A stretch of 64,000 nucleotides of DNA from Allacma fusca (Eukaryota; Arthropoda; Collembola; Symphypleona; Sminthuridae). The translations under genes were made by a program, and so were the position numbers. Shown piece after piece: positions 5,671-63,677 of the stretch. Positions within the stretch are counted from its first letter, which is position 1. Every line of letters starts with the position of its first letter. A model generated the notes under the pieces. It did no database searches and was not told the origin of the DNA. It saw nothing but the letters and a program-made list of their open reading frames with translations. The DNA lies in assembly GCA_947179485.1 (NCBI GenBank), contig OX359248.1:52648386-52712385 (forward strand), given 5' to 3'.

Positions 5671-5834
5671 CAGTCTCTTTATAATGCTCCGCAAAAAAAA
5701 AACCCTAAATTTGACTATGATCATTGAAAAAATATACATAAGATTTATTTTAGTGCAAAACAGAAACGTATGACCAACTGGCGCTCCTATGGGAAAAATT
5801 TGATAGGGAAGTCCGTTACAGGAAGAGTACACTG
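5671..5834. mobile_element. TA-CAGT MITE copy
   Basis: Left end CAGTCTCTTTATAATGC; right end, read inward, CAGTGTACTCTTCCTGTAAC. The flanking TA has decayed on both sides. An A-rich run follows the left end. Confidence 0.45.
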
Positions 5835-6000
5835 GAAATGAGAAAGAGGGAGATAATAATTCCTAGTTATGAAGGAAGGGCGAGAGAGGAAGAGGGACAT
5901 GTGAGTTTTAATTACTGCAAATGAAATAAGAGACAGGGACGCATTAGAGCGTGCTTCAATGGAAAAGTGCCTCAGTTCATGTTCTACAGTCTCCTTTGAA

Positions 6001-6124
6001 CAGTCAAGTCTCGTTATAGTGACCTCCCTCAAATTTATGCACACTGACTTAAAATCCCATGTTCCATAAAGTTACACTAAAATAGTCCCTTTTCCAAGAG
6101 TTCCCTTATAACGAGGCTGCACTT
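6001..6124. mobile_element. TA-CAGT MITE copy, short
   Basis: Left end CAGTCAAGTCTCGTTATAGT; right end, read inward, AAGTGCAGCCTCGTTATAAG. Shorter than the typical copy, probably by internal deletion. Confidence 0.58.
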
Positions 6125-6254
6125 CATAAAATCATACAAGAATGTGAGGTAAGAGCGTAGTAATTGCTCAAATTCTCATCACAACGTGCATACAACCGTA
6201 GTAATGACATTCATGTCCAGGACCCGGTTGTAGTCTTTAAAGTGCTTTAGGGAG

Positions 6255-6435
6255 AGTGAATGTCGCCTCTCGTTAGAACGGACCTCTGCTTAAGAACTTT
6301 CCTTTATAGGGTCAAAATATTTTTTCAAAATTCCCCCCTAATACTGTAATAATTTTTTGGTGGTGATAAAGATCGAGCTGGAGAGATCCCAAATTTTGTA
6401 AAATTGTATGTTGATTTTATAATAAGAGTACACTG
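6255..6435. mobile_element. TA-CAGT MITE copy
   Basis: The right end is clear (inward TACAGTGTACTCTTATTATA). The left end is diverged and best matched by GTCGCCTCTCGTTAGAACGG. The length fits the family. Confidence 0.48.
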
Positions 6436-7285
6436 TACAGAGGGATCTTTGTCATGTGTACTGTGAAATTGTATTTGAAACGTTTCCATTTCTGAAGGAA
6501 GGAATTGCAAGCATTTACAATGTCTTGAAACGTGAGGGTGCTCACGTGTCTAATTTATAAAGCAAGAGCACTGAAGAAGTTCCAGTTGTAGTCAATTTGA
6601 AAGGGGAATCTTTATATAGTGCACTTCCCCCAATTACAGTTTACATACCCCAATTTTCAAGAGCATTTTTTCTATACTGTTTAAAAATCCGTACCCGCGT
6701 TGAAATTTCAGAATTTTGCTGGAGAATTTTGCCCGGAAAAAAAGATAAAAGGCTTTTATAAGGAGGTCCGTTATAGTGAGACTTTCTATTCTCACTTTTG
6801 AAGGGACTAAATTTGCAATTGTGGCTAATGAGAAAGTGTCCAACATTTTTTTGCCCTATTATCTCGAAACATTTGAGAAAAATATTTTTTTGGAAGTCCC
6901 TTATAGTAACGTTTTACTCGAACCCTACCAACGTGCCTGTGCGGTACTTTTGGTTAAAATGCGCTTGAGACATACAGTAAATTAGGAAAAACATATTGTC
7001 GCTGACGATTGGAAAGATTACGATGGTAGATTTCTGTAATGGCCATAAGAAAAATACAATGGCCAAGAAATGGGAATATTTTCGAAGGGGAGTTTCCGCA
7101 AAATGCAAGCAAATAATGCAATGATGGATAATAAATGTAACAATAAAAATATTTTATGGGACTCCCAGTCAATGGAATGTCAGGTGTCAGTTCCAGAGCG
7201 TCCTTGTCCTTCCCTTATGCCATTTAAGTCAATTGCTAGCCAAGTCTCGACAGCTCTGCTTACTCAAGCTGAAGCAGCCTCCATG

Positions 7286-7547
7286 GAGTGACCTATCTTT
7301 ATAACGGTACCCCTAAAATCTACAATATTGGAGTTTGCTCAAAGTTTTGGGAATTACGGGAACGTTCTCAAAGATTTTAGCCCTATGTGAAACTCTATTT
7401 AGTAGGAAAATGTTTCAATGAGATTTTATTGTGAATATTGTTTTAAGAAAAAAATGTACTTTGTAGTAAATGAAAGTTTTTCAAGATATTTTTGCCCCCA
7501 TGGATAAAATTCTGTAATGAGGGAGTGCCTTATAACGAGTGTCGATG
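7286..7547. mobile_element. TA-CAGT MITE copy, long
   Basis: Left end GAGTGACCTATCTTTATAAC then GGTACCCCTAAAATC; right end inward CATCGACACTCGTTATAAGG. The interior is somewhat longer than in most copies. Confidence 0.6.
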
Positions 7548-7700
7548 TATTCAGTCAATTGCCTGCTCTTCAGCTAATTATTCTTTCCGGCCTTAAGCCC
7601 GGAATATTGTCCACAGGGTGCCAAAATTGTTCCTGACAGTTTTGTTTCCTTTAAGCTCTCCAAACCAAATTCTTATAGAAAGTATGAAGGAGCTTCTCAA

Positions 7701-7739: not shown

Positions 7740-10700
7740 CATGTTGCATTATTCCAGGAACTGGAAAAATTGCCCATACATAAATATTTAACTGGAAAAT
7801 AGGATTAGTACGTCCTGCCAATTGTGTCGATTAGTATGTACATGAACGTATTTTTATGGGGAGGTTCAGACGGGAATTACTGGAATCCTTTCTTTGGGGA
7901 ATCCACCTCATTCGAATTTCATGACCCAATCTCTTAGACAGAACCCCTTCTAATTGCAAATTTTTATCAACATATTTGCGTTATGAGGTGATTCAGGAGC
8001 GTAATTGTGATAGTAAAATGTAGCCCTAATTATATTTCCAATGTTCTCAAAAATCCAGGGTCCTACAAAATATTTTTCTCCTTCAAGTTTGTCAGTGGGG
8101 TCCCGGGAATAAGCTTCCCACCCTTGGCTTCATCGTGTGAAAGGGACTAAATAAGTTTTGTCATTTTTTGTTTATTATTTTAATTCCTTTCATCATGTAG
8201 AATATTTTTAATGCTGTTATGTATCAGCTTGTTTTAGAAAATTTCATACAAAAAATTGATATCAATTTAAATTTTTGTAATGGGAAAAGTTTGCTGCGTC
8301 AGATTCTACCCAGAATGATTGAGTATTTTAATACAAAGGTAAAATGTTTCTTGTTGTGTTGGACATATGTTAAGTATGCACAGTAAGGGATTTTTAAATG
8401 GGTGCAACATATAACACAAATACAATGTAAGCAGTAGATAGCAGCCAATAAATAATATAGTAAGCTTTATTATTTAACTGCACAAATCAACATGCGATAA
8501 CATATTTCATTAGATCTGAGTAACTTTTATGTCTATTTGAGCATTAATAATTAATTGTATGAAGAAGTAAGTTAACCATTATTAATTGAATATCTCAATC
8601 GTTCCTGTACAAAAGATTACAATAATTGTTATTTTAGCCAACTAGGCATTCAAGTCGCCTTCCCTTTGTATACATAAGTTCGAGTAATTATAGTGAACTT
8701 TAAAATAAGACTGGGACTATCCCAGGCTGCACTGCTGCTTTTATAGCCTTTCCAAGAAATAATGATTTGTTATGCCTAGCTGACCAGTGAATTTGACTAT
8801 TGTTAACTGGTCACAAAACTGAACTTCAATATTGCATTATTTATAAACAAATTCTCATGTTCATTGTAACACGGGTAATTATAGAAATAGTAAATATTTT
8901 ACAGTACGTATACATTTTATACATGTATTATTATGTTTACAAGAGAGCTCTTACACAAGTTTTACGTTAGCATGTAATTTCATAATGTTTTACCGATCCG
9001 AGGCTGTACTCTTTAAATCGGTTGCACATAATATTCATTGACAAAAGTTATAAGTAATTAGTATAATTATATCTAATTATTCATATTCATTTTTTATAAT
9101 TTTCATATAAAAATTAACTAACGTACAACCCATGCATTGTAATTTCTTATGTAAAGTCAAATTTGGATCCTTTATGAAAAACCCATGATGTATTGTTCTG
9201 TAGCCGTTTCGAAGAGGAAGGCTCAATTTTTTCGGGACTCTGTATGCTTCGCATGCACGTGTGCATTTACAAGCTTGTTGCATAGAATTGGAGCCCATAT
9301 GGGCCGTGATGTGTGTTGTAGAGGGAGTTTTTGGAGGATAATTTGGCTGTGATCCGTAATTAAATTCCGTTCCGACGATTGCCACCGACTGTGGACCAGA
9401 CTCTCGCAATATCATTATCCCACACAACAAATTGACAGTGTGCATTCATCAAGGACTTGCCCTGAAATGAAGCCCGTAATTGGCATACATTTCAATAAAC
9501 AAATGTTCCGGTCCTTATGAGTCCATTCAAATTGCACATTCCGCTCCAATTAACCGTTTGCGAGACGATACCGAATTCCACTCAATTTACTCAACACATG
9601 TTCCACCACGTTTTCCAAGCCCGATTTGGGTCAATTTAAGCCCAGTCTCACTACAACACTCCCTAATTCAGGTACTACTCTCCCACTATTTTTCCCCACT
9701 CACATTTTCCCCTCAACAAAATTCACAGTGGGGAGGGATCTTTTTAAAGGCTAAATATCTTTGTCTGGGATTTACCCCTCAAAGGGACTAATTTACTCGA
9801 TTCCGACGATCCTCCACGCAACTCCCTTAAGAAACAGTTTTGATAAGACAATTTTATTTACACCTGAAATTGTGTGCTGTTACAAGGGAAGTTTCATCAA
9901 GGAACATGATTTTGGGGGTAAATTCACCTGCCTGATTAGGATATTGTTAATTAGTTTTACGTGGGAATGGTTTCGGAGATCCGTTTTAGTGAGGCTGCGC
10001 TGCATGCTAGTAGTTCTTTTCAATGGGGGTTTATTACAGTGGGATTTCTTGACATTTTTCTGTATGAAATTCAAATAGCTAATCTTAAAGGGAAAAATTC
10101 GACCCAGGAATGTATGGAAAATTCTATTCTAATAAAAACAGTGTGGATGTTGGAAAAAATCGTAACTTTCCATTTAAAAAGTGATTTTTGAGGAAAGCTG
10201 GAGGAAAGTTTTGAGGAAGGGCGGAGTCTTGGCGTGGTAGAATATTTGAAGGAAATAAACCTCTGTGGGTTAAGTATTAAATTGAAGGTAGGGTGAAAAG
10301 GAAGGCGAAGAAAAAATGGTGAGGAATTTCATTTCCCTCAAAGGCGACGTGTTCATTACCCGGCGCCCGGGAACAGATTTAATTTTGGCATCAGTTCTTC
10401 CAGGACTGGTTCGCTTTTGCTCTTAACTTGGGCTGGTTGGGAGAAAGTGTATTTATATGAGCATGTGGTTTGTGCATGATGGAAAGAAAGCCCTTTGAGA
10501 TGAAACGGATTGGAAGGGGAAAAACAAAAATGTATATATTAGCTTATTCTATTTGCTCTCTTCCCTTGGATTTACTGCTTACGAATCTCCTTCAGGGAGA
10601 AAGTAAATACCCGATGGGTGCTCAACCTTATCATTCCTGCATCCTTCCCCGTAAGTGATCCTTTCAAGTTCGGGTTCTATTTCAATTAAATTATTTATCA

Positions 10701-12327: not shown

Positions 12328-12504
12328 CAGTGGGCTCTCGACACAGGGTCCCTTCGTTTTGTCACGCTTTAAAACACAGCGTTAGGTAACACAAAGTAAG
12401 TAAAAATTCAAGTTGTACTTGTAAAACGACGGATGCGGGAATTTATTTATTTTTAAATCGGCCATTAAAGCAACAGTTCGACGTATATGGTCCTATAGGG
12501 ATGC
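12328..12504. mobile_element. TA-CAGT MITE copy
   Basis: The left end CAGTGGGCTCTCGACACAGG is flanked by TA; the right end is diverged (inward AGCATCCCTATAGGACC). Length 177 bp matches the most common family size. Confidence 0.6.
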
Positions 12505-13256: not shown

Positions 13257-13432
13257 AAGTGAACTCTCAGTACGAATGAGCTCAATATAAGAGCATTTTT
13301 TAATAGAAACAAAATTGCTGAGACACGCTCTCGTTACCTCACAATACGATAATTTCTTGGTTTTGAAAATATGCCTTAACAAGTCTCTAGCCCTATTGTT
13401 TCAAAGGGCGTTCTTTCAGGGAGGTTACACTG
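13257..13432. mobile_element. TA-CAGT MITE copy
   Basis: The right end is intact with TA (inward CAGTGTAACCTCCCTGAAAG). The left end is AAGTGAACTCTCAGTACG after TA. It is 176 bp and lies about 180 bp from the next copy. Confidence 0.65.
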
Positions 13433-13612: not shown

Positions 13613-13786
13613 CAGAGCACCTTCGCTATCAAAGTAAGTCCTAGACCCCAGAAAGCCATCCCTCTTAAAATTCCCTGCTTTCATTTGAAAATAAAACATT
13701 ATTTCATTAAATGGTCATTTGTGCGTGGCAGTTTCTTTTGGAGATAAGAATATTTTAAGGGGGTCCTTCATAGCAAGCGTACACTG
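13613..13786. mobile_element. TA-CAGT MITE copy, well preserved
   Basis: TA flanks both ends. Left CAGAGCACCTTCGCTATCAA; right inward CAGTGTACGCTTGCTATGAA then GGACCCCCTTAAAATATT, the best match to the subterminal family sequence. 174 bp. Confidence 0.82.
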
Positions 13787-21168: not shown

Positions 21169-21484
21169 CAGTCCTCCATAGCTATAGTCAAAGACCCCCC
21201 TTTAACAGCCTTTTCTCTACAAGGTCCAAAATATTTCAACATCCTCCTTGTTCCCTCAATGCTATTTTGTCTCCCTCTAAATACCCTGCGCATAGGATTC
21301 ATATTTACTCCTTTCCGGGTCGCTCTTATAAAACAGTTTACAATATTCACATAAGGTAGTTATTTGATATCGCTCCTCTCATACCAAAAAAACTAGTTTT
21401 GTCGTAAATAGGACCGTGTTCAAATATCTTCTCCTCTACCTAACACATCCTGTAAAAGAGGTCTCTTATAAGGAGAGTACACTG
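21169..21484. mobile_element. TA-CAGT MITE copy, long (about 316 bp)
   Basis: Left end CAGTCCTCCATAGCTATAGT then CAAAGACCCCCC; right inward CAGTGTACTCTCCTTATAAG then AGACCTCTTTTACAGG. It belongs to a size class near 315 bp, perhaps a longer subfamily or two overlapping copies. Confidence 0.65.
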
Positions 21485-21848: not shown

Positions 21849-22284
21849 CAGTTCCTATAAAATACTTGAAAAGAGCATTTCCTGTCCTTGGGTTACAAGA
21901 GTGAAGGAAATTGTCCTTCACGCTCAAGTCTAATTTTGATCCTTACAATAAAATGAAGCCATGGTACATGTAAAAACTTCAGGCTATTACATAGCCGCAT
22001 CTGCATAAACTTACAGATATTGTACCTTATTGGGCCTTATTGTTGAAAGGAGCTGTAAACGGGAATGACTTCCTCCAACGTTCCTTTTTGGGACATAGAA
22101 AATTGGCCTACATACGTAATTATCCAGAGGAATCTCTCCATGGGAGTACATATGTATCTATATGTACATATACCTCTTGTCAAGAGTAAAAAGTGCTCAG
22201 AAAAAAATTGTTATAATAATATTTCCCCAATAGCTCCCAATACACAGGATTTGGATAACAACCCTGCATAACGAGAATACACTG
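21849..22284. mobile_element. possible TA-CAGT MITE copy, long
   Basis: Left CAGTTCCTATAAAATAC after TA; right inward CAGTGTATTCTCGTTATGCA. The ends pair, but at about 436 bp this could be two solo ends. Confidence 0.42.
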
Positions 22285-22905: not shown

Positions 22906-23062
22906 CAGTGCGCTCTCATTATAGCGGATGTCTTCTTTAAGTATTTTCCTCGAAAGGTGGAAATAGCACACATGCGTTGGTCCGAAGATAAAACAATGCC
23001 CTTACAAAAACATCTACAGAAGACTCTCAATCCAAAGTAAACCCTTACCAGAGCATGAGTGC
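22906..23062. mobile_element. TA-CAGT MITE copy
   Basis: The left end CAGTGCGCTCTCATTATAGC with TA is excellent. The right end is diverged (inward GCACTCATGCTCTGGTAAGG) and also followed by TA. 157 bp. Confidence 0.6.
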
Positions 23063-26431: not shown

Positions 26432-26626
26432 CAGTGTACTGTCTCTATGAGAGCACCCCTCAAAATATCACATTGTGTTTAGGACGCTCTTTTCGAGGGA
26501 AAAGAATTGTCATGTCGTTTGTCAGATTATATTGTGACAAAATTAAGATTGGGGAAAGTTTTAAATATTTGTCTGTCTTTGGAGAAAGTGATACTTTGAG
26601 GGGGCCTTCATAGCGATAGTGGACTG
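26432..26626. mobile_element. TA-CAGT MITE, best-preserved copy (family reference)
   Basis: Both ends are flanked by TA and begin CAGT. The first 45 bases of each end, read inward, align closely: the left carries CTGTCTCTATGAGAGC and CACCCCTCAAAATATCACA, the right carries CTATCGCTATGAAGGC and CCCCTCAAAGTATCACT. Length is 195 bp with no coding capacity. The family end is close to CAGTGNACTCTCGNTATAA followed by GGRACCCCCTCAAAATNTC. A TA target site and terminal CAGT are typical of Tc1/mariner and pogo/Tigger elements, so this is probably a non-autonomous derivative of that superfamily. No transposase is present in the window. Confidence 0.9.
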
Positions 26627-28469: not shown

Positions 28470-31049
28470 CAATATTGATATTATTTATACCTTTTGGATT
28501 CGTATTTCATTTAGGTAATGCTAACATATGGTTGCGTGGTAATAAATCATTGTTTTCCAGGTTCTAACTTATGGTAATTAATTATAATAATTATAGATTA
28601 TAACTTATGATTATTCTGGTTACCTAGGTTATAACTAATGGTAACTTAGGTTATGCCTAAACATTGAAGTACAATTACCTCGGACTCCCAAGCACAGACA
28701 ATAATAAGGAAAAAAGTCAGATTTGTACGTTTAAGAATATTAGTATTTAAAAAAACACATCACAGCTTTCAATTTGCCGCAAAAATTCCCTCAACAGCGT
28801 AGAAAATCACTTTCATTAATTCACATTGAACACGCAAATTTGTTAATATTTCCCGTCCATTAATTACTATTTAGTAGGTTTTTTTACACGTCGAACACTA
28901 GCCCTTACGTACACTTATATGGGCAAATTAACATGTTAATTATAATATCAACCGGAAATATAAATTGCACCAATCCCACACCTTAGTCAAATTTCATATG
29001 TACATAATACATTTTAACCCTCATTGTTGGGACAAAATTTTCCCTATGAATTGGTTTAAAAATTCCAGACCAAATTACAGAAATGTTCGGAAACAATTAT
29101 CACTTTCTTTTAGACAGCGGACTCCGACCATTTGACACCCCCACCCCCATTAAAAGCAAGTCCCATAAAACTTTTTTACTGATTTTTATCCGTCGCCCAA
29201 ATACGTTATTTTTTCACGGAGTCATACCATTTTTAGTTATATTTAGCGTCTTTTAGGGGTGCCTTTATAGCAAAAGTGCACTGCAAAAATTTTCAGTTAT
29301 GATCGGACCCAACTGTTGGGACACTTGCAAATGAGTACTTATAGTTTCTGGCATAAATGTATCCGTTGATATTGAATTTCTTCAATAATTTAAAAATCCA
29401 TTCACACTTGAGTACAATAGCGTTTTATATGGTTAGAGTTAGAAATATTTAAATTTTCACGGGAAGATTTTACATGATCGGCTCAAAATGTTTGATCCTA
29501 TTAAATCCACTTTTTTTAAAGAAAACACTGCTATGAAGGAAATTAATAACCTCGTCAAAGGTACAGTCACGATTTTTCTTGCCATTTATATAGTTTCAAG
29601 AAATTCGGGCAAATTTTATGAAATTCAAAGGATGTGTCAGAAAATTTATTGTTGGTTTGGGGAAACCAGTTTCAAATTTATTTGTGTCATTTTTAGGAAA
29701 CCCAAATCTTTTTGTTTGAATCACGCCTTTTTTAAGGAATTTAGAGTTGTTCAGGAACTGGTTTTTTTGATGAAATTTTGTCAATATTAGAAATTTTTGC
29801 TGCTTGAACAAAAATCGGTTGGGGATTTCAAAACTTAATTAGTTTTTCAAAGGATATTATTTGTTTTGAAGTTTTTTTGCGTTTTCAGTCATTTTTGAAA
29901 AACTGTTCTGTTGTCAGGAATCGTTCGCTTTAAAAATGAATTCAATTTATGGTTGATGCTCACTTTTTTACGATTTAGAAAATGACAGGATTTCGAATAA
30001 AATTTCCTCACATTTTCTCCATGAATATTTACGCTGTCGGGTTTAATTTCGTTTTCAGCTCGATTTGGATTCAGATTCTTGTCAATGACTTTAATGGGGA
30101 AATGACACTTAGCTCCAGTTTCCTCATTTTTATTTCTCTCTTCCTGCATAAAATTTCCTGGCCACGTCCAAAGGTTGAGGTTGAACAAAGATGTATTGTG
30201 AATTTTCTTGTTGGAAAATGCAATTCCCTGTTTCCCCATTGCTAGTTTCAATGGCATTTCCATTCCATTTGGTGTCGAAAACGCCTGAGAAAAAATGGGA
30301 TGATTAAATAGCGTAAGAGGAAAAGCTGGCAGTCCTTTTTTTTGTACACGAGTGTAATATTTCCGCCCGTCAAAATGGGTCGTTGCTTGAGGAAAAAATT
30401 GGGAAAATTCAAGAAATAAATAATACGTTGAAAACAATTTCTCTGGCGTGTGAAACGATGACGTTGAATTTCATGGAATTTTTGCAACTGCAGATGGTTT
30501 TCAATGCAATTGCACTTCTCAGTGGTGCTTTTCTTTTTCAAAGAATGTGCATTTTCCCCATTTCTCCTTGAACTTTCTCCAACGTTTTTCCATTTGGTCT
30601 CAAAATTTCCCTTGGACTTGAAGAGCCCTATTATTTTCCATCCATACGGGGGGAACTGGCTGGCAAAGAGGAATCTTTTCTGGTGAAAATTGATTTTCCT
30701 GCGTCAATTTTAGGCCTTTCAATGGTTAATAAATTTTGAAGTACTAGGACTCTCCCTGACGTATTATTTACTCAAGGAAAAAATGACGGAAATGTTTTCT
30801 TGTTTTCGGCAAATTTAATGAAAGTAGGAAAAGCCGTTTGTGAATCCTGGGAAATGGTTTATTTGAGCAGAGTATGGTTCCGTACTTTCGTTGGATATGC
30901 CCGCATTAAGTTTTACAGTTGTTGCAGTTTGATTTTATATTTTCTGTTCGTATAGAATTTAATAGGAAATTTTCGTGGAACAATGGGTTATATTTATGTA
31001 ATTCAACGTCATTTGATGGGGGCGGAGGTTCACACCGATTCGGATGGTT
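28470..31049. other. no gene recognised
   Basis: Intergenic sequence 3' of dpr with one MITE at 29115. A 182-codon minus-strand frame (30437-29889) looks like chance: it has no domain or repeat and is low in diagnostic residues. Confidence 0.55.
29115..29283. mobile_element. TA-CAGT MITE copy
   Basis: Left CAGCGGACTCCGACCATTTG then ACACCCCCACCCCC; right inward CAGTGCACTTTTGCTATAAA then GGCACCCCTAAAAG. 169 bp. Confidence 0.75.
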
Positions 31050-34442: not shown

Positions 34443-35124
34443 ATGTCAAACTATACGCAAGGAATACATACGTCCGCTAACTAAAACATAAAGTGCAATC
34501 TCCCTGTAAAGACCCTTGTGAAGGAAGCAAAATTTCACCTTTAAGATCCTATGATAGAGAAAAAATTACAAAACAAATCTATGGAAATTTATGCAGGACT
34601 TTTTCCCCTACAAACGAAGCTCGTTTCACAATACATTCGTAAACTTCACCTGGACTTTAAAGTAGATACATGCCCTCAAGTATCTGTTTACATGTCTTCA
34701 TACAACAGAAGATTTCCACGAATTAGTTTTCACATGCTTGAGGGTCCGTGTGTGTGGCGATGGGTAGGAAATAAATAGAATTTTATTCAGTATAGCAAAA
34801 CCACTTTATAAAGGCGCCCCACATTTTAAAAAAGAAACCTTTGAAGTATCCGTTATTAAGAGCCCAATGGGTACATTTTCCTCTAGAAACTCTAATTTAG
34901 CTTTGTTACAACGGCTTCGTAAGGAGGTCCCTCACAGGGAATTTTTTTTCCGAGGAAATATTCCTGTTTGGAAATTTTGAATTTGGAGTAATGGTTGGCA
35001 TAGAGGTAACAAAATGCTTTTATAAATAGATTGCTTATAGCAATGGTTTCCTGTACATTTATATTTGCGTGTATGGTATTTCGGGGGGTTTATTTTAAAT
35101 GAGGAGTTGCGAAAAAAAACTGAC

Positions 35125-35248: not shown

Positions 35249-38096
35249 CTGAAAAATAGAAAAACAAGTCATTTATTATTCTTTCAGTATCAATTTCTTT
35301 CTCCGTGTCTTTATTCAAAATTTTACCAAATGCATCAAATATACGCTCTCGATATAAAATTCACACCGTTTGAGTAATATTATTCTTCCTTCATTTAACA
35401 ATTTTCTCCATGTAATAGTGCCTTATTGGAATAAAATATTTCCATTGAAAACTCCCTAATAAATGAATTTTCTCTTTAACGACAAAATTTGTTTGAACAA
35501 TGTCGTTTTTACTACTGTGACATTTTCCCGCCTTATAAGAGCAAAGTTTGTAGGTTCGTAGTGACAGTCAGTTGGTGTGTTGGAGATTTTTGTCATAGAG
35601 TGAGGGCACTGTGTACAGATTTTACAGCATATTTACAGCAATCAAGAAGAAATTAACCAGAGCATAATCTAAAAAATTGTCGTTCAGAATCAAAACGACT
35701 TTTTCAACTGAAATTCCCTCCTTATGTCTCGTTGGCGCAATTCCGCCCCGAAAATATTCACCAAAATAGTTTTCAGTTTCGGATGTCTTGACATTTGTAG
35801 GTTTAATATTTTGAACGGGAAATATTTATAGATTTGAAGGGACAAAAGTGAGAGTTGAAGGAGTGTCTCTAGACAACAGATAGTGAGTAAGGGGCGATGT
35901 AGTGCAAGAAAGTGTTGAAAGGTTGCGTCAGAAATAAAATGGGAGGAAAGGCAAATGCGATTTTTTTTGTTGGAGTAAAGAGAAAATGCGAAATGGAAAA
36001 ATACATTCATAAATGTTTATTACATATGTGAAGGAACATTCGGGGACGGTTAAGGAGAGGAAATTGACTGCATTCCAAAAGTGAGCCGATGAAGCTGCAG
36101 GGAAGGAGAAAGGAAGCGCCAAGCACGAGCCAGCCGGTGGGAGTATTATCTTTCTTAGAATTTATACAGTAAGCTCAGGCTGTACTGGATGCGCATTGTG
36201 CAATTAAAATCGATTGCCAAATTTTTATGAGCGCTACAAAATATTAATGGAATATTAAATGGTAGTGTTTTGCCCCAGAAAATATATTTTGGAGATAGAT
36301 TTGCCTTGGATTTTCCAGTTGCCGCTACAAGGAGGTTTGACGGGAATTTGGCGGTAGGAAAGGGAACAGAGCCGCAGTCATAACTAATAATTGCCCTCGC
36401 TTTATCCTCTGTATCTGGAAGGACGGATTTCGATTTGTAGTCAAGAGAACTACAGACACTTCAAAGGAATCAAATGTTCTTGTTTTCAAATCTCTCCTTC
36501 CGTTTATATACTCCCAGTTTGTACAGGGTTCCGGGGGAAACTTTCCATTCTCCAGTTTTGACATACAATTGAGTTGAAATATGGGTCTGAGTAAATTTAT
36601 TACATACTACAGTACATTTTCAACATCAAAAGGAAAAATTATCTTAATTATGAAAAAATCATAAAATCGAGTTGCTTTTGCACTCTTAAAAGTATAAAGC
36701 AGTACGCACAACATTTTCTTTTGTAGACAGCTTTTAAGAATTTTCGCCAAAATTTGATATTTTAAAAATTCAAAACGGCATGTATTCAGTACTTTTAGAC
36801 TCCTTTCTCGCTTTATAAAAGTTCGTAAGCTATTTCTCTTAAAATTTATTAGAGCTGATTAATAATCATACGATATAGATAGGTAATTACATTTCCAAGT
36901 TTATTTTCTTATCAAAATATCACTTTTTGTATTCAAGCATTCAATATCGTTCAAATGTATGTCAAATTTGATATAATTTCTGAAAATATCAACGACCTTT
37001 ATTTCCTATAGAAATCCAAAGTGGGTGAAAGGGGTTTTTGAATTGGAAAGTGTCGAGACATTTTTCCATAGGTAAGGACATGAATGTCTTAATTTTTGGG
37101 CACACGAGGGGGTAGTAACATTTTTGGACAACCCTGTAATAATGTGCGTTGGAGTGAGCCGCCTGTAGTCACGAAAGTCAAGGATATTTCCAAATTTTTT
37201 GCATAAAATTTTTAATGAAAAGCGGCTCTCCTGCGGAGTTCAAAAATATTCCTTTGCGTTTCTCCATTTGAAAGTTTTGTCGGGGCTGGGAAGAATCAAG
37301 GTGAAAGTTATGGGCATGTTTGTACGCTTCCGCCCGCTCTTTCTCCCTGTAATTGTGTCTTGAATGGGAAGAAATCATAGCACGAGAGACTCCAGTGGAT
37401 TTTTAATCCTAGAATTTCCCTATTTACAATTTCTCTACTTTGAACTTCCAATACGCTCCAAGATACGGAATTTAAATTACATGTAGATATGAATTGCTAT
37501 TATGAATTGCTATTCTCAAAGTCATGATTTTAGTTGGTTTTTATATTTGTGCTTTAAAAGATCTACATGTGCAAGTACCTGTTCAAAATACATATTTCGG
37601 TTTCATTACAACACTGAGAAATATACACTTGAGAAATACGACTTTTATTAGAGTTTTGAGTTCCAAGAAGTTAAAATTATTAAATGTGAATAAAATTTAA
37701 TTTTAAATGATTCTGTTTTATTTTTTCCCTTGCAATTGCATGGAATTAAATGGAACTGTCCCTAAGAAATTTTTGCCATGAAAGAGAAATCTCTCCAATA
37801 AAAATGAGTCTGTTGGAAAAGGAGTTTACTGTATCAAATTTACAAGGACAGTGTGGGTTGCTGATTCTACAAGAAAAAAAAAATTTGAATGACAAATGGC
37901 TCAAGTTTTCCTCCACACGTGGAATCAAATTTCTTCCCAGTCGTGTTTTTTCCTGTATATAAATGGGACCGTATTTCACACATTTTTCTACCAGTTTGCA
38001 TGCATATGGGCCCGGGGAAAAAAACAAGTGGGGATTTTTGTGGATATGTAAAACATGCCCTTCCTTTGTACTATTGGGTTCTTGGTTCGAGGTGGA

Positions 38097-45163: not shown

Positions 45164-45538
45164 CCTCTCGACGGATTGATGTTTGCCGAAGAGATTGACC
45201 ACCCGTCCACCGTCATGGTACCAGAAGATATATGCGGGTTGTTCTAAACTCTGTGTGATGATGCATCTAATTTGCACCGTACTCCCGCTCTTCACAAATA
45301 GGTCGGACTCGCCCAAAATCTTGGTCTGAGGAACGACGACTTCCATTTGGACGAAATGTGACATTTTCGGCTCACTCGTGACTTGACACTCGTACATTCC
45401 CGCGTCTCGAGACTGGACGTATTTTATTTGCAGAGTCCAAGTGTCCCCGTTGTGGAGAACTTGGAACCTCTCGTCAGCAATGAACGTGTAACGATCCACT
45501 GTCAAGATGTGCGAGTCTCGTTTCCGGATCCACGACAC
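45164..45538 (-). CDS. dpr: dpr exon B: rest of Ig1 and first half of Ig2
   Basis: This exon encodes 125 residues (51-175 of the assembled product), in phase 0 at both ends. The acceptor is ttggaaattcag before GTGTCG and the donor is GAGAGG followed by gtaaat. It opens with VSWIRKRDSHILTVDRYTF, the Ig1 tryptophan strand (Trp53) of Dpr proteins. It continues through WTLQIKYVQSRDAGMYEC, which supplies the second Ig1 cysteine (101). The linker VVVPQTKILGESDLFVKSG leads into Ig2, with Cys142 in VQIRCII and Trp156 in IFWYHDG. The open frame continues beyond the donor only into a serine/leucine-rich translation of an (AG)n tract, which is intron. This is the most diagnostic exon of the gene. Confidence 0.96.
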
Positions 45539-45691
45539 CTGAATTTCCAACGTCACAATTTTATCTCAACCTTTAACATCATCACTTTACGAATACATGC
45601 CGTGTCCCTCCTTATACCCACGCTCAGTATGACTTTGCGCCTGTCATCTTTTACATACGTGTCTTCCGAGGAGCTCAATTTAAAAAACAAA

Positions 45692-45792
45692 TCTCGTTAT
45701 AAGGGATTTCTCTTTGTGAGAGAATCTCTTCATACGGGATCTCTCGTTGAAAGGAATCCCTTCTTCTGTCCGGTATCTCGATGTGAGGGAAT
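45692..45792. repeat. tandem array of MITE-end-like 16-19 bp units
   Basis: About six consecutive units follow the pattern TCTCGTTATAAGGGAATC with variation: TCTCGTTATAAGGGATT, TCTTCATACGGGATC, TCTCGTTGAAAGGAATC, TCGATGTGAGGGAATC and others. The unit is the inner part of the MITE end. The array lies 150 bp upstream of the dpr exon B acceptor, in the intron. Confidence 0.6.
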
Positions 45793-45824
45793 CATTTACT
45801 AGGGAACTGATTTGCATATATTTA

Positions 45825-46025
45825 CAGGAAACCCGCATTAGATTAGAACCCTCAAATCTTAAATTTTGAATCTAGCAACACTCCATTTGAGGATACAGTT
45901 AAGGAAACAAAATTAACATGTTGTTAAATAGCAATTTGTGCAAACATATTTGAGGCAGTGCTGTGAGAATGGGTCGGATCAAAAAACTCCTTAAGGAGAG
46001 AGACACTTATAGAAAGAGAGCACTG
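45825..46025. mobile_element. TA-CAGT MITE copy in dpr intron A-B
   Basis: Left CAGGAAACCCGCATTAGATT then AGAACCCTCAAATC; right inward CAGTGCTCTCTTTCTATAAG. TA on both sides, 201 bp. It lies next to the tandem end-like units at 45692-45792. Confidence 0.72.
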
Positions 46026-46437: not shown

Positions 46438-46623
46438 CAGTCAAGGCTCGATATCATGGGCAACCTTTTAAATCCCAGTTTTTCTTCAGGGGACGACTAA
46501 GTCTGCCCACAGTCATATTTCCCCCATTCGGTCAAATGCCAATTTTTTGGGACGGGAAAATTTGTTGTAATTCGATAGGAAAATATTTTCTTGGGCCGGG
46601 GACGCTCTAGAGAAAGTGCACTG
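46438..46623. mobile_element. TA-CAGT MITE copy in dpr intron A-B
   Basis: Left CAGTCAAGGCTCGATATCAT; right inward CAGTGCACTTTCTCTAGAGC then GTCCCCGGCCC, with TA at the right end. 186 bp. Confidence 0.75.
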
Positions 46624-46925: not shown

Positions 46926-47101
46926 CAGACAAATCTTGTTATAACGGAATTTTCTATATGACAGAAATCCTTTACTTAAATTTGTCATCACCTTCTACGA
47001 GCAATTCTTCAAACGGCTTTTAAAAGGATGACCAGACCATTTAATTTTTATTCTCAAAAATCCCCAGAAAATTTCCAACCCCCTATAACGAGATTTGACT
47101 G
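46926..47101. mobile_element. TA-CAGT MITE copy, well preserved, in dpr intron A-B
   Basis: Left CAGACAAATCTTGTTATAAC and right inward CAGTCAAATCTCGTTATAGG match at 16 of the first 20 bases. 176 bp. Confidence 0.85.
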
Positions 47102-47652: not shown

Positions 47653-47834
47653 CAGTGGGCTCTTGCTATAAAGGAATCTTTTACGTATTATTCTCTCTGT
47701 CAGTTTTGGAAGAAACGATTGTAAGTGAGATTTTTTGAATGCAACGGACTACTTCAAAGCAAAACTTTTATTAAGACATTTAAATCTTTTTTGGTTTCCT
47801 TGTACTCGTTTGATTTTATACGAGCAGTGCAGTG
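47653..47834. mobile_element. TA-CAGT MITE copy in dpr intron A-B
   Basis: Left CAGTGGGCTCTTGCTATAAA then GGAATC, after TA; right inward CACTGCACTGCTCGTATAAA, with TA. 182 bp. Confidence 0.75.
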
Positions 47835-50597: not shown

Positions 50598-50773
50598 CTG
50601 TAGACTCTTCCTAGACTGACGGTCCCTGGAGTAGGAATCCTACAATCAAGTACCTTACAGCGATGGCAGGAATGTCCGGGAAGGATGCTTTTGCATAGTA
50701 AATTCTAACTAAGGCACAAGCCCTGAAACAGGTACTACTACTCCTGGACTGTCATTATAGGGAGAGTTGACTG
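50598..50773. mobile_element. TA-CAGT MITE copy, well preserved, in dpr intron A-B
   Basis: Left CTGTAGACTCTTCCTAGACT then GACGGTCCCTGGAGTAGG; right inward CAGTCAACTCTCCCTATAAT then GACAGTCCAGGAGTAG. Similarity extends beyond 40 bp. 176 bp. Confidence 0.85.
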
Positions 50774-53240: not shown

Positions 53241-53515
53241 ATCATCTCCGAAATACATTATTATGAATACTTAATGAAACCCGACTGTTTTTCCTGGCCC
53301 CAGCCGTTTGTAAGAGATCCCTAAGGATAGTGCATACATAACGGATATCATTTATAAGGAATAAAAATCCAAAGTCCCGAGAGAGTGCTTTATAGCGAGA
53401 TTTTCCATTATAATGGAAGTTTCCACGTAAAAGTAGTTTCTTTCTGTAACGTATACATCACTGGTTAACATTCCCATTTAACATAATGTTACTTGTTATT
53501 ATTAGAGATTTTATA

Positions 53516-53746
53516 CAGCGAACCTCGTTAGTACTCTTCCAAGAGCATTTTCTTTTTAGAGTTAACTCCTGTCTTTAGCTCTAGATATTCTGGACGTAAA
53601 TTGTTGCTATGATGGAAACCGTTATAAAGAGACTTTCCTTATTCGATGACAAATTATCATTAAATTTAAGGTCATTTTTAAAGTATTGATTTTTTCATTG
53701 ACTTGGGAAAGAGTTGTTTGGGATCCCTTATAACGAGAATTGACAG
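53516..53746. mobile_element. TA-CAGT MITE copy next to dpr exon A
   Basis: Left CAGCGAACCTCGTTAGTACT and right inward CTGTCAATTCTCGTTATAAG then GGATCCC, with TA on both sides. The right end is only 67 bp into the intron from the exon A donor. Confidence 0.75.
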
Positions 53747-54399: not shown

Positions 54400-56015
54400 T
54401 CTTCAGCTTAGAGTCAAATTAATTTCAAGTTCGGGTCAAATTTAATTTTAAGTTGGGGTCAAGTTTAATTTCAGGTTCGGGTCAAGACTAATTTTAAGTC
54501 GGGGTCAAGTTTAATTCCAAGTTGGGGTCAATTTTAATTTCAAGTTCGTGCTAAGTGTAATTCTTATTTGGGTTCAAGTTTAATTTCGAGTTCGTACTAA
54601 GTGTAATTTTTATTTGGGGTCAAGTTTAATTTTTAGTTGGGTTCAAGTTTAATTTTTAGTTGGGTTCAAGTTTAATTTTTAGTTGGGTTCAAGTTTAATT
54701 TTTAGTTGGGTTCAAGTTTAATTTTTAGTTGGGTTCAAGTTTAATTTTTAGTTGGGTTCAAGTTTAATTTTTAGTTGGGTTCAAGTTTAATTTTTAGTTG
54801 GGTTCAAGTTTAATTTTTAGTTGGGTTCAAGTTTAATTTTTAGTTGGGTTCAAGTTTAATTTTTAGTTGGGTTCAAGTTTAATTTTTAGTTGGGTTCAAG
54901 TTTAATTTTTAGTTGGGTTCAAGTTTAATTTTTAGTTGGGTTCAAGTTTAATTTTTAGTTGGGTTCAAGTTTAATTTTTAGTTTGGTTCAAGTTTAATTT
55001 TTAGTTGGGTTCAAGTTTAATTTTTAGTTGGGTTCAAGTTTAATTTTTAGTTGGGTTCAAGTTTAATTTTTAGTTGGGTTCAAGTTTAATTTTTAGTTGG
55101 GTTCAAGTTTAATTTTTAGTTGGGTTCAAGTTTAATTTTTAGTTGGGTTCAAGTTTAATTTTTAGTTGGGTTCAAGTTTAATTTTTAGTTGGGTTCAAGT
55201 TTAATTTTTAGTTGGGTTCAAGTTTAATTTTTAGTTGGGTTCAAGTTTAATTTTTAGTTGGGTTCAAGTTTAATTTTTAGTTGGGTTCAAGTTTAATTTT
55301 TAGTTGGGTTCAAGTTTAATTTTTAGTTGGGTTCAAGTTTAATTTTTAGTTGGGTTCAAGTTTAATTTTTAGTTGGGTTCAAGTTTAATTTTTAGTTGGG
55401 TTCAAGTTTAATTTTTAGTTGGGTTCAAGTTTAATTTTTAGTTGGGTTCAAGTTTAATTTTTAGTTGGGTTCAAGTTTAATTTTTAGTTGGGTTCAAGTT
55501 TAATTTTTAGTTGGGTTCAAGTTTAATTTTTAGTTGGGTTCAAGTTTAATTTTTAGTTGGGTTCAAGTTTAATTTTTAGTTGGGTTCAAGTTTAATTTTT
55601 AGTTGGGTTCAAGTTTAATTTTTAGTTGGGTTCAAGTTTAATTTTTAGTTGGGTTCAAGTTTAATTTTGCTTTGGGGTCAAGTTTAATTTGTATTTGGGG
55701 TCAAGTTTAATTTGTATTTGGGGTCAAGTTTAATTTGTATTTGGGGTCAAGTTTAATTTGTATTTGGGGTCAAGTTTAATTTGTATTTGGGGTCAAGTTT
55801 AATTTGTATTTGGGGTCAAGTTTAATTTGCATTTGGGGTCAAGTTTAATTTGTATTTGGGGTCAAGTTTAATTTGTATTTGGGGTCAAGTTTAATTTGTA
55901 TTTGGGGTCAAGTTTAATTTGTATTTGGGGTCAAGTTTAATTTCAAGTTCGGGTCAAGTTAAGTTTCAAGTTCGGGTCAAGTTTAATTTCAAGTTCGGTC
56001 AAGTTGAATATCTGG
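54400..56015. repeat. 24-bp satellite array, about 65 units
   Basis: The centre (about 54638-55668) has about 43 almost identical units of GGGTTCAAGTTTAATTTTTA plus GTTG. Next come about 11 units of GGGGTCAAGTTTAATTTGTA plus TTTG up to 55930. Both edges carry diverged 24-bp relatives such as TCGGGTCAAGTTTAATTTCA. A homogenised centre with older edges is what unequal exchange produces. It lies upstream of dpr exon A, probably in the first intron. Confidence 0.97.
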
Positions 56016-57841: not shown

Positions 57842-59545
57842 TACATTAAAGGACGAGCTATAAGACAAGTGTTACGATAGCGAGGATATAAGAGGCTCCA
57901 ACTCTGAGGCCATAAAAGATGGCAATGAAAGGGGGCGGGTAGAATTTGCTGTGAAAACGGTCCTGGCGCAAATATTTCGTGATGAGGTTCGGAAGCCATC
58001 TCTTTGGACATGTCCTTGGTTTATTTGGGATGAAATACATTATCGGGTCGAAAATTTACAGATCACAGCCCCATAATGGCTTTCTCATGTACGAAGGGGA
58101 CATAAATGGGGGAAAGCATCGGAGAGAGTTTCCAAGGATTTCTGCTTTAGCCCTATTTTTCCAGGCCATTAGGCTAACCAAATATCAATGTACAATTGTT
58201 GTTTACCAATTTTATTCCCTCTCATGGCCATTCCCTTGTTTGCACTCCTTCCGTCTTATAAATCCTATCTAAATATGTCCATGTCATATTGAAACTAAAG
58301 GCAAGACTCGAAATTTCCGGTGGGACGGAAACCCCGGGTTTCAACAACTTTCAAACTTCGCCATTGTACCTGGCAATACGTTACATATTTGTTTGCGTTC
58401 ACTCTTCAAATCCGGTCTATGGTGCTTCCGCTGAGGACTGTTTGTGAATCTGCCTGTAACATTAAATGCAGTCCACACTTTCTACAGCGGCGTCACCTCA
58501 TCCTGGATTTTAAGGTGTCCTAAGGAGGTGTGGTAATAGTAACAGAAATCCGAGCTTAAATAATTATGCATATGTTCATACGTAAATTTAGGATAGAACT
58601 GGAATACGTTTTCCAATGCAGGAATAACATAGAAACAACCATTATAAAAAGATTCTAAAAAATGTAATCAAGTTTTAATCAATGTGTACAAGATTTCTTG
58701 ACAATGAAATACTGGTAAAGGTTTGTACAGAAAATTTTAAGTATATTTATCAAAGATGTCAAAAATGATTGCTGAAAATTTTCACGAACCTTATGCCAAT
58801 ATTGTGCTAGTTTTTTGAAAGGAATTCCTTTCAATTTTGCTTCAATTTCCTCCAAAAGTTTCTTGAAAAATTGCCCAATTTTATACAAAAATTATACCTG
58901 CTACCAAAACAAAATTTCCCTTTTAACTAAGTTTTACGGAACATTTTTCATAGGTCAACGTCACTCTCACCCGACCTCAAAATAAAAAACCAGCTACTAT
59001 CTATCTTTGCTTTGAAATGAACTGAAGAGTAAAATTAGGAAAAAATCCCAGAAAAAAATTCATACAATCATTGCTTTGGTTGAGAATGGTTAGTCAAAGT
59101 TTTTGAAGAGCAAAAGTTGAGGAGCGACGCAGCAAGAGGGGAAATGTCTCGTTCCAACAGGAAACATGGATGGAATTAGGGTGGAGAAAATGTCAAGTAT
59201 GTTGAGGTGAAAGAAAGTTGATGCCATTGGTGACTTGGAGTGGGAGAAGAGCTAAAGTCTTACTCATTAATGAGCATTTGAGAACCATTAGTTGGAGGAT
59301 TAATGAGATTGGAAATCATTCCTTGCCTTAGCCAAAGCCTAACAAGCTCTCAGCAACATTTTCATGCTCCACTGGTTTTTCCCCTCTGAAAAAGAAAGTC
59401 TTGAGGACTCCTGTTTTCAAAGCAACTCAATCTGACACTTGTTCCTCACAATTTTTTCTTAGCAAAACTAATGACCAGGATTTCATGGAATTTCCGGGCA
59501 CTTTTAGCAACATTCCTTTAATCTGCAATCCCGTTATGTACAGTA

Positions 59546-59857
59546 CAGTCTTGTTAATACGTTTGCCCTAAAAGTAACCAGTTCCCGCTAGAATTGATAT
59601 TAGTGATAATGGCAAAATAGAATTAAATTCAATAGCTATTTTACTAACTCAACTAATAACTTCATTATAAATTTAACTTCTTTTGGTTTTGTATCAAGAT
59701 TTTTAATTGTATCTACGAAGTTCGTTCGTGCAGGGTCCTAAGGTAGCCAAAGTCTACGATATAATTTACTGTCGGGAAATAGCAAAGGAAAAATAGGGAT
59801 ACGAAAACTGTAGATCCTTCACATGTTTGAAGGGACCGTTATAAGATGGTCCTACAG
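59546..59857. mobile_element. TA-CAGT MITE copy, long
   Basis: Left CAGTCTTGTTAATACG; right inward CTGTAGGACCATCTTATAAC then GGTCCC. At 312 bp it is in the same size class as the copy at 21169. Confidence 0.52.
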
Positions 59858-60609: not shown

Positions 60610-61120
60610 GAGCGAAATGCTTTGATTAGTACTTTACCAATTAGTGCCATTAAAACGGTCACCATTTAAGTCGGTACTGTTAAAGTTTGTTACCTAAATA
60701 TTAGTGCCACTTTATTTACTTGTAGTAATGTTAAAATAGCTACTTTTAAAAGGAGTACCACTCAAATTAGTTGTATTTAAATAAGTATTGCTGAAAAAGG
60801 CACCATTGAAATTAGCACTACTCAAGTTGGTACTACTCAAATTACGACTACTCAAATGTGTCATTTAAAATATTCCCATTCAACTAGTAAAGATTATTAT
60901 GTTTGGTAAAATTAGTGCCAAAAAAAATCGTTTGTTCAAATTACAACAATTGAAATCAGTACCACTACCACAAGTAGCATTGAAGTTAGTAATAATAAAA
61001 TTTTGTGATATTCAAACTAGTGGGAAAAAATCAACAACATTAAGCCCTTAAAACTAGCAGCGCAAAAGGTAACCATTCAAACTACCAAAGCTACTGCCAA
61101 TTAATCTAAGACTTAAATTT
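60610..61120. repeat. degenerate repeat, about 17-20 bp, TTAGTACCACTCAAA type
   Basis: Loose units such as AATTAGTGCCATTAAAA, AGTTGGTACTACTCAAATT and AATCAGTACCACTACC recur through about 500 bp. Too diverged for an exact period. Confidence 0.6.
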
Positions 61121-61651
61121 ATTACTACCCTTTAAACCCAAATAGAAAAATGGTTGTCATTTAAAACGTATCCAATAAAATAGCTTCTTCGTAAAATTTC
61201 AACAAATTTAATTGAAATAAAACTGCCCGAGCAAAATTTAAGTGAGCAATATAAATAAATCATGAATCCCAAACAGATCCGTTGTAATAACTCCTGACTG
61301 TACAAAAGCTTCGAGAATTTATTTCAAGTCTTTTCATCCAGAAATACTAAGAATGTGATGATACGCTGTTGCTTAGGGAAAAATAGGTTTACGACATTGA
61401 ACTACAGTCTTTAAAAATTCACGTCTGAGAATTTCCAAAGGGATTTCTCAGCAGTTTATGCCCTGCATGTTTATAGTTATGTGTGCCTAAAAAAATGGGA
61501 ATTTTCTGTACCTCACAGGACGAAGTAAACCTGGGAAAAGGAGGAAGGAGTAACTCACGCAAGGAGAAAAGAGCACTCTTATCAAAGCAAATTATCTGCC
61601 CGGACTGGACTTTCTTAAGATTCCTCCAGGATAAGCGTCTCCAATAAAATA

Positions 61652-61820
61652 CAGTCTGGGTATAAGAGCAACCCTCAAATTCACAAAACGCGACTCTCGT
61701 AACGAGGCGCTTTTTAAAAGCGAGATATTAGCATTGTGCGAAACGGAAATTTTCTCAAATAGTTTCCCCGTCAGGTGGACACGTTCCTTTATTGGAGTCC
61801 CCGGTATCGACAGCCCACTG
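61652..61820. mobile_element. TA-CAGT MITE copy, well preserved
   Basis: Left CAGTCTGGGTATAAGAGCAA then CCCTCAAATTCAC; right inward CAGTGGGCTGTCGATACCGG then GGACTCC. TA on both sides. The interior has ACTCTCGTAACGAGG, an end-like internal unit. 169 bp. Confidence 0.85.
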
Positions 61821-62002
61821 TAGCATCCCCCTCATATAAATAGCACTTGCGAAGTTCTTTTGGGAAAAAGTTTATAATTCATGTAGTTTTTCTTAAATGA
61901 AGGTTTTTCGACTTTAGGGCTCTCAGACCTGCGGGCTGTCAAATTGGTTTCGCAAGGAGTTTAATCTTCCAGGAATTAAGACGGAAATGTCAGCAGGTAT
62001 TA

Positions 62003-62035
62003 CAGTGTAATCCTTATATAAAGGACTCCCACACG
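62003..62035. mobile_element. solo MITE end
   Basis: CAGTGTAATCCTTATATAAA then GGACTCCC, after TA. No convincing right end within 300 bp. Confidence 0.5.
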
Positions 62036-63496
62036 TATTTTCTCCATAGGGGTGATAGTTTGGTTTCATAAACTCCCGTTTGCGAGTATAATTTTGTAAG
62101 TATACCAGAATTGTGAAAGGAAATATAAAACAGGGTTTTTCGTACTGTATACATATGAGATTTTACCCTCTTGATTCGTGCCTTTGGAACAGTCCAACTT
62201 TATTTCATATAGAAAGAGTACAGCAGTTCCGAAGCTGAGTTTGGAAATTAAGTGGATTGATTTAACTGGTTTAAGGCAAGCCGTCTCTTTGTATGAGGAG
62301 GTGAAATCCAAACGGGAAAAGTTCTGTAAAATATGATGGGAGAGACTTTTGAAAACCTTATCAATTTCCAAACTACTGAGAATTTCAAGCTCGCGATATT
62401 TTTAAATTCAAAAGTAGTAACTTATTGTATTGCCATTCAATTGCAAAACTTCGGGGGGCAATATTTTGAGGCAATCAAAATTCACCTTTTAAAAAAGTTG
62501 AACTTTTGACTTTCTCCAAAACCCCCTTTTCTATATCTCCCCAGTCTTTTAGTGAGGAAGTTTAATCCGCGGGCTTATTCCAGTCCGTACTACAAAAGCG
62601 TACAGGCTTATTCCGTTTTGCATGTAACACACAGTTGACCTAATTATTGCACCCCTTCCAATGACCTCTGACCTTTAAGATTTTGTCCATGAATTTCCCT
62701 TGTTTTAGAGTCCTGAACCTGAATTTGACTCACCTTTGAAAACCTAAACCTTGACCCTTCGAATGCCTTACACCAAAGCTCAAACATGATCCTTACATAG
62801 ATACACAATTGAACTGCACACATGAAAACACTCCTGAATTTGAAATGGACCAAGCTTGATGACCCATGCTTAATCTGGACATCAACTGGAATATGACTTA
62901 CAAATGTATTTGCCCTTGAACAATATGCCTCCCTTGAAACTTGACAACACTTTTGCGCTTGACCTGTTGCTAAAACAAACTGACTAGAATGAACCTGGGA
63001 TTTTATGAATAAAATCATACTCGATGTAGATACTCACTTATTCGAACTTGACCTTTCCCTCGTATCATTACTTGAACTCTACAGAGCCTCTAATGCCTAT
63101 CAATTTACCAGAAACCTGGATATTCCAACGTTTCCCAGCAAAGCGCTCCCACAAACGATTATTCACATTGAGAGTGGCAGTAATTTCATAATTCCATACA
63201 TTTACTCCTTGAAATTGATGCTAATGAAACTACTATTCCATTCAACATTTCCACAGCGCCTGATTTGCCTCACAATTGCAGAACTTATAGTACATACCCT
63301 TTTAGACACACAAACATTCAGCTCAATCAATAGACCTAAATACGATACGGTAGAATCTCGTTGTAACATCCGCTTTTGTATTAAATGCTAGAATCATTTC
63401 CTCCCAAAGCGCAACAAAATATTTCTTTACATTCCAGTTTATACCCAAGTTTCTCCTCCTCCTCCTCAGAGGTGCGTAAATACTTGAGATTCCCTA

Positions 63497-63677
63497 CAGT
63501 GGCCCCTTAAAAACGTAACTTTCTCTTCACTACCAAAAATACTTTCACCTACGGTCCTTTATAGTGCAATGCAATGTTTTTTCATTAAAATTTGCTTGCA
63601 AATACAACCCCCGAAGTTTACTTTCTGAAGACGCTCTCTTAGAAGTCTCTCAAGTCTCTTATAACGAGAGTTCCCTG
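63497..63677. mobile_element. TA-CAGT MITE copy
   Basis: Left CAGTGGCCCCTTAAAAACG; right inward CAGGGAACTCTCGTTATAAG, TA on both sides. An extra left-type end (CGGTAGAATCTCGTTGTAAC, 63350) and an internal right-type end near 63575 suggest a nested or longer element. Confidence 0.72.

Follow-up and report, generated by a model that had tools for sequence, protein, structure and literature searches.

In the springtail Allacma fusca, whose genome of 392.7 Mb comprises 91 contigs, we analysed a stretch of 64 kb (G000:C12:52648386-52712385, referred to below as the window) in which a short motif recurs that has the appearance of the end of a miniature inverted-repeat transposable element (MITE). 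The first-pass annotation had described here one abundant MITE family with CAGT-type ends flanked by TA, in about 29 paired copies. When the window was searched with CAGTGNACTCTCGNTATAA, allowing up to three mismatches, 22 matches were found compared to the 0.07 expected, and none of 100 shuffles reached 22, which shows that the end motif is real. An iterated weight matrix of 28 columns, running from 4 bases outside to 24 bases inside the end, settled on 75 ends in the window, whereas about 3 are expected by chance. At cut-offs of 11, 14, 18 and 22 the matrix detected 75, 64, 44 and 25 ends, respectively, in the window and 4, 0, 0 and 0 in the reversed sequence, and its consensus end is TGTA|CAGTGCACTCTCGCTATAACGGCC. 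Among the 64 ends the flank is TA in 37, TG in 10, CA in 7 and something else in 10, and thus 17 of them carry a TG or CA flank that is one transition away from TA, in line with the TA flanks described earlier. With the flank columns taken out of the matrix, TA flanked 29 of 60 ends. The flanking T and A carry 0.74 and 0.81 bits of information, respectively, and further out, from -3 to -30, the values are 0.00-0.16 bits; therefore, the similarity of the ends stops before the flanks, and similarity running on into the flanks, which had been named as grounds for giving up the MITE interpretation, is absent. Inner positions 25-28, which lie outside the matrix columns, hold 0.29-0.62 bits and position 29 holds 0.07. 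Since the signal continues beyond the matrix and drops at position 29, the ends have about 28 bp in common and their edge is no product of the matrix. Taken as a set, the window ends have the TA-flanked, paired terminal inverted repeats (TIRs) of MITEs, but this does not hold for each copy because many ends are orphans. No gene was found in the window copies, no Rfam family matched the window at its gathering score, and no tRNA was detected in a scan of the window with bacterial settings.

When the spacing of the ends was examined it was found that facing ends are paired at preferred distances, as had been claimed. There are 11 facing pairs 150-200 bp apart, compared to 3.8 when orientations were shuffled (p = 0.0004) and 1.1 with random positions. 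Facing combinations 60-420 bp apart with both scores at least 9 number 24, some of them with a common end, and TA borders 9 of the 24 at both ends; the control, combinations that face outward with the same score limit and are 80-400 bp apart, gave 13. We take the real pairs to number roughly a dozen to twenty and not 29. Four of the 24, with lengths of 189, 210, 314 and 319 bp, were set aside; two of these reuse an end that belongs to a better pair, and the other two have a weak end at 6601 in common. The remaining 20 pairs, used below, sum to 4,466 bp, or 7% of the window, compared to the figure of about 8% given earlier. The best-scoring facing pair is 195 bp long (26432..26626, TA on both sides, scores 25.3/30.2). 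As many as 7 of the 20 pairs fall in a length window of 174-177 bp: 46926..47101 (176 bp, scores 24.8/23.6, flanks TA/TG, 18 of the outer 22 bp identical), 13613..13786 (174 bp, TA on both sides, 17.5/28.8), 13257..13432 (176 bp, TA on both sides), 6260..6435 (176 bp), 61647..61820 (174 bp, TA on both sides), 50598..50773 (176 bp, 14.6/25.5) and 36167..36343 (177 bp, 15.1/16.6). Seven pairs in a 4-bp length window did not occur in 20,000 uniform simulations and occurred in 12 of 20,000 smoothed ones, or 21 of 20,000 with the 319-bp pair added and 25 of 20,000 with all 24. The second size class that had been placed near 315 bp was found at 316-317 bp, in the pairs 21169..21484 (316 bp, 12.8/28.5), 53431..53746 (316 bp, with a weak left end, 9.1/25.7) and 59541..59857 (317 bp, TA on both sides, 16.7/18.8). 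Of other lengths are the pairs 63348..63677 (330 bp, TA on both sides, 20.2/31.0), 5666..5834 (169 bp, 20.8/26.9), 6001..6124 (124 bp, 24.4/27.4), 46438..46623 (186 bp, 17.5/22.9), 34793..35053 (261 bp, TA on both sides, 15.1/18.8) and 12328..12483 (156 bp, TA on both sides, 20.5/11.6), and the candidate pairs 22125..22284 (160 bp, 14.7/18.6), 9638..10002 (365 bp, with a weak left end, 9.5/22.3) and 45684..46025 (342 bp), the left end of which merges into a 33-bp tandem repeat of end-like units. Tandem arrays of end-like units of 28-33 bp, looking as if ends had been expanded in tandem, occur in the window at 45690-45763 and in an X1 stretch described below (L074:7539-7680). Two strong ends on the forward strand are orphans, one at 47653..47680 (score 30.5, best facing partner 7.7) and one at 22906..22933 (score 29.8, best facing partner 7.1).

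The interiors of 19 pairs were compared, the 365-bp pair being left out. BLAST among them gave 3 weak matches, and three control sets, made of randomly drawn segments, gave 5, 7 and 1; thus what had been taken for one abundant family has its ends in common and interiors no more alike than random segments. A single family with a common interior was also not supported by ungapped and gapped comparisons, save for a weak trio. This trio belongs to the 174-177 bp class and consists of the pairs at 6260, 13257 and 61647, the interiors of which are weakly similar (alignment z 2.5, 5.2 and 4.7), that of 61647 resembling 6260 and 13257 in reverse. In 28 comparisons among eight elements, each taking the best of at most 18 ungapped offsets, six were above z 3 with an identity of at most 0.448 against a background of 0.27, which is thin evidence for similarity among these eight.

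Elements with ends of the same type that carry a pogo-type transposase are present elsewhere in the genome. When the whole genome was searched with the end pattern, allowing up to two mismatches, there were 3,663 matches compared to 44 for the reversed pattern, and the ends were paired at many places. The first-pass annotation had found no autonomous partner and had proposed a search for a Tc1/mariner or pogo transposase gene flanked by the same ends; genes of the pogo type were found between ends of the same type. Two elements on C1, L009 and L010, are 3,771 and 3,357 bp long, have TA on both sides, are 98.8% identical over 3.19 kb and have a perfect TIR of 22 bp, CAGTGCACTCTCGCTATAAGAG. Their exons, two of which were scanned in L009, match CENP-B_N, HTH_Tnp_Tc5 and DDE_1, all over the Pfam cut-offs, and the E-values for DDE_1 are 1.9e-16 and 2.7e-27 in two L010 exons and 5.1e-16 in one L009 exon. 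The transposase gene has four exons, and the gaps between those of L010 have GT...AG borders as read by eye; likewise, the catalytic spacing in L010 was counted by eye as DD30D and QAQITDYF was read at the C-terminus of its transposase open reading frame (ORF). This octapeptide is similar to the PIP-box that other authors have reported in transposases of the pogo type (PMC5371812). A DDE_1 domain with three acidic residues, a TA duplication and a TIR of at most 40 bp, all of which mark pogo elements, are thus present in L009 and L010. A search of the PDB with one DDE_1 exon gave two weak matches that are apparently unrelated. More pogo-type families, with CAGTGAATTT or CAGTAAAACTTG ends, TATAGTGG motifs and DDE_1 matches containing stops, were seen at L030, L052, L053 and L055.

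Non-autonomous relatives of L010 were also found. Eight copies, L011-L018, are 664-702 bp long (the ~690-bp family), keep both ends of L010 and align with ~220-320 bp of one L010 end and 360-385 bp of the other. These young copies are 85-90% alike among the rows shown, and they share an interior as a multi-copy family does, which the window copies do not. When the flanks of one of them, the 679-bp L013, were joined at one TA, all 40 scored places out of 346 candidates matched across the junction with 90-96% identity. Because the joined flanks match without interruption, L013 sits in a high-copy repeat of which the other scored copies are empty; this comparison concerns L013 alone. L013 and L020 (C1:28.68 and 74.62 Mb) occupy the same site of the high-copy repeat, L020 being longer by an additional internal segment. 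A family of 178 bp with ends TATAAGGGATGC/TATAAGGGATAC recurs on C1, with many pairs at one spacing among the first 100 of 403 matches and a copy at L048:115-292. At G000:C1:36975448-36987491 four 178-bp copies lie at a constant spacing of 3,960 bp, which looks like a tandem segmental duplication, and at G000:C1:53478937-53479274 two MITEs of the 178-bp type are separated by ~2 bp, and one seems to have inserted at the end of the other. The 19 window interiors were compared in both orientations with young 178-bp and 157-bp MITEs, and in these 76 comparisons z was 6.8 once (for 6260) and above 3 in three more. Descent of the window copies from the 178-bp or the 157-bp MITE is regarded as unproven. 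The only clear link beyond the ends between the window and a young family is at 29173..29283, on the reverse strand, where ~80-110 bp in the subterminal region of the end at 29283 resemble an end of the ~690-bp family, matching L012, L013 and L021 with 66-71% identity (E 3.9e-4 to 6.6e-5). The earlier statement that no autonomous partner is known has thus to be amended in that pogo-type gene-carrying elements with such ends exist, and it stands in that they are linked to the window almost only by these ends; as the autonomous element that moved the old layer in the window they are candidates, and unproven.

An octamer within the TIR links the ends to the sequence next to them. In 14 hand-chosen elements, which represent four end families, positions 15-22 of the TIR form an octamer that is found again a short way inside the end, in the same variant within each family. 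The eight autonomous and ~690-bp-type elements each have 3-8 copies of TATAAGAG, both the 178-bp and the 157-bp MITE have three copies of TATAAGGG, and four elements from two further pogo-type families have 2-4 copies of TATAGTGG. As cross-matches, TATAACGG was found once in 6 of the 8 and TATAAAGG once in two, L003 contains one TATAAGGG and L048 one TATAAGAG, and in three elements the octamer at one end deviates. As the copies within a family are related, the pattern counts as four observations. This suggests that one domain may read both the outer and the inner octamer sites, the two changing together, and a family-specific octamer would be a testable signature of co-evolution between a transposase and its sites. 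In the window there was no strong excess of the octamers outside the ends.

The abundance of the old ends turned out to be regional and not a property of the genome as a whole. For comparison, random samples of 5 kb were taken at fifteen preset places spread over six chromosomes (75 kb in all); at the cut-off of 14 they contain 2 matrix ends, whereas the 64-kb window contains 64. The density in the window is thus ~37 times that in the samples, a rough ratio as it rests on 2 counts, and the window has the local density far above the genome average that defines a transposable element (TE) island. At the cut-off of 11 the samples hold 4 ends compared to 5 in their reversed control, and the plain pattern was found 22 times in the window and not at all in the samples. 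A second matrix was built from 16 ends of L074, an X1 stretch, with no letters of the window, though these ends had been located by the window matrix; it detected 32 ends in the window, 2 in the samples and 1 in the reversed control. When the cut-off was relaxed, these numbers rose to 64, 6 and 5, respectively. When the genome was searched with the old-variant pattern CTCTCGYTATAACGGACC, allowing one mismatch, there were 64 matches and none in the reversed control. On C5, which is X1, there are 31 of the 64 matches (9.2 are expected from its length), and all but one of these, 30 in number, fall at 2.07-10.6 Mb; on C12 there are 12, all between 44.8 and 57.3 Mb; C10 and C9 have 9 and 8 (expected 11.0 and 8.0), and C1 and C8 have 2 each (expected 13.6 and 12.5). 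Pairs of matches at most 100 kb apart number 46, whereas 1.0 is expected. A second old variant, CTCTCGYTATAAAGGACC, gave 32 matches compared to 3 in the reversed control, and after removal of the 14 in common with the first variant, the distance to a first-variant match is at most 1 Mb for 13 of the remaining 18, compared to 2.6 expected. L074 itself, picked from the old-variant matches, has 16 ends in 10 kb. Males of A. fusca eliminate X chromosomes and the paternal genome. As a control for a young family, 75 places on C1 were taken by hand, one per end pair, from the first 100 matches listed, which span C1 and C5 up to 8.4 Mb. On C1 there are 10 pairs within 100 kb compared to 6.7 expected and 78 within 1 Mb compared to 67, the 74 places below 80 Mb being distributed as 10, 4, 8, 11, 6, 16, 6 and 13 per 10 Mb, and 9 rows of this family lie on X1 below 8.4 Mb, which is no excess over C1. 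Thus, the old-variant ends cluster regionally and the young family on C1 does not. When general repeat richness was considered as a cause of the islands, repeat coverage between 30 fetched pieces was 0.00 in 26 of the 30, alike in the window, the islands and the random samples.

The window ends are very probably the decayed TIRs of many small MITEs moved by pogo transposases, an old layer that lies in regional islands of which the window is one. This reading draws on sequence evidence, namely the ends, the TA sites, the gene-carrying relatives and the empty sites of a young relative. A related, older transposase would have bound the ends through its CENP-B_N/HTH domains, and the short elements would then have been cut out and pasted at TA. 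The window copies would be remnants of many old subfamilies, which would explain why they are alike only in their ends, and such elements would be ordinary in kind, that is, cut-and-paste MITEs of pogo transposases, now or formerly. Several observations sit uneasily with this. Besides the end at 29283, no window copy matches the fetched young elements beyond the ends, and the partner of the old layer is therefore assigned by the ends alone. Many ends are without a clear facing partner, and L075, an X1 stretch likewise picked as an island, has 3 ends in 8 kb. The eight young ~690-bp copies are already variable in length (SD 12.9 bp), and therefore constant lengths are unexpected in old copies, of which 7 of 20 are of 174-177 bp; plain decay does not predict this constancy. 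One could argue from it that selection keeps the ends and their distance for a spacing-dependent role, either as regulatory units or for a precise excision of the kind known for internal eliminated sequences of ciliates, and that the interiors drift. The length classes despite unrelated interiors, the conservation up to position 28 with its sharp drop at 29 and the TA-bounded ends would all fit such exaptation. However, the inner arms of the trio have an identity of 0.35-0.46 compared to a background of 0.27, which is near the 0.46-0.57 of the ends, and these figures are expected from plain decay of one family together with the choice of sites by end score; the many ends without partners also speak against it, and we consider it improbable. 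Equally hard to credit is its fullest form, in which a pogo-derived system is kept, or was kept for long, by selection at fixed lengths and ends in certain regions, X1 above all, and is regulatory or precisely excised. That the ends are an artefact of chance or composition in an AT-rich region has a negligible probability. Some low-scoring ends and pairs must be due to chance (~3 ends and, from the outward-facing control, up to 13 combinations), and at the cut-off of 11 the random samples have no more ends than their reversed sequence (4 and 5), but the 22 matches against 0.07 expected, the 75 and 64 window ends against 4 and 0 in the reversed sequence and the 64 genome matches against none rule out chance as a general explanation.

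As to why decayed pogo MITEs are concentrated in islands, a reading that we favour, at about even odds, is that ancient non-coding DNA would be lost more slowly there. It is possible, although we hold it to be less likely, that the old pogo families inserted preferentially or hopped locally, in which case the islands would reflect targeting instead of slower loss. The 46 pairs within 100 kb against 1.0 expected fit local hopping and the random samples are almost without old ends, but the young family, whose ends are of the same type, is not concentrated, neither on C1 nor on X1 up to 8.4 Mb, and of 39 pogo-type DDE_1 matches, classed by hand, 1 lies inside the islands compared to 3.1 expected. 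The uneven survival of old copies would offer a way to map the retention and loss of ancient non-coding DNA in an arthropod genome.

The other features of the window can be described briefly. On the reverse strand at 44924-45565 there is an exon that encodes an immunoglobulin domain of the I-set type (E 2.5e-9), the only Pfam match in seven window ORFs. Its sequence resembles the insect dpr genes, and the window may be largely introns of a dpr-like Ig gene. A tandem array at 54419-56009 has 69 copies of a 23-bp unit with 95% matches. At 4372-4510 lies a hairpin-like repeat (arms 4389-4435 and 4445-4491) that is 79% identical to a segment within L019 and is probably a different inverted-repeat element. 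The A. fusca genome note (PMC10427803) and the genome-elimination paper contain neither 'transpos' nor 'repeat' in their main texts. Among the titles and opening lines of abstracts that were listed for springtails, MITEs and pogo, collembolan transposable elements and Tc1-mariner, and A. fusca, none describes the elements, and they may be catalogued in Repbase or Dfam, which were not searched. In another, related springtail, Orchesella dallaii, unclassified interspersed repeats are reported to make up 16.69 of 20.17% of the genome and Tc1-IS630-Pogo 0.07% (PMC12693562). Pogo MITEs alike only in ends of ~28 bp would escape ordinary homology searches, and they could explain part of this dark repeat fraction.

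Pogo-type MITEs such as Emigrant of Arabidopsis are likewise short, flanked by TA and without a gene, and have CAGT ends. Unlike Emigrant, the elements described here are in an animal host, belong to many subfamilies alike only in their ends and have an old layer that is regionally concentrated. The internal eliminated sequences of ciliates are TA-bounded, with Tc1/mariner-like ends, free interiors and preferred lengths. The likeness to them is one of sequence alone, excision not being in evidence here, and the many orphan ends are a difference. MITEs in the ciliate Blepharisma have been treated elsewhere (PMC9942856). Elements of the pogo superfamily (Tigger/pogoR, within IS630-Tc1-mariner) are described as having a TA duplication, a TIR of at most 40 bp, a length of 1.2-5.2 kb, CENP-B_N and HTH_Tnp_Tc5 domains and a DDE_1 domain with DD29-36D spacing (PMC7386202). 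The gene-carrying elements found here agree with that description in the TA target, the TIR, the length, the three domains and the DD29-36D range. They differ in that the transposase gene is in four exons, and the window copies differ in that no gene was found in them; the assignment to the superfamily is by domains and not by a tree. Finally, in the ant Cardiocondyla obscurior transposon copies have been reported to accumulate in discrete genomic regions, the TE islands (PMC4284661). The old pogo-type ends of A. fusca accumulate in discrete regions in the same way, with the difference that here the clustering is known for the oldest layer of one end type.

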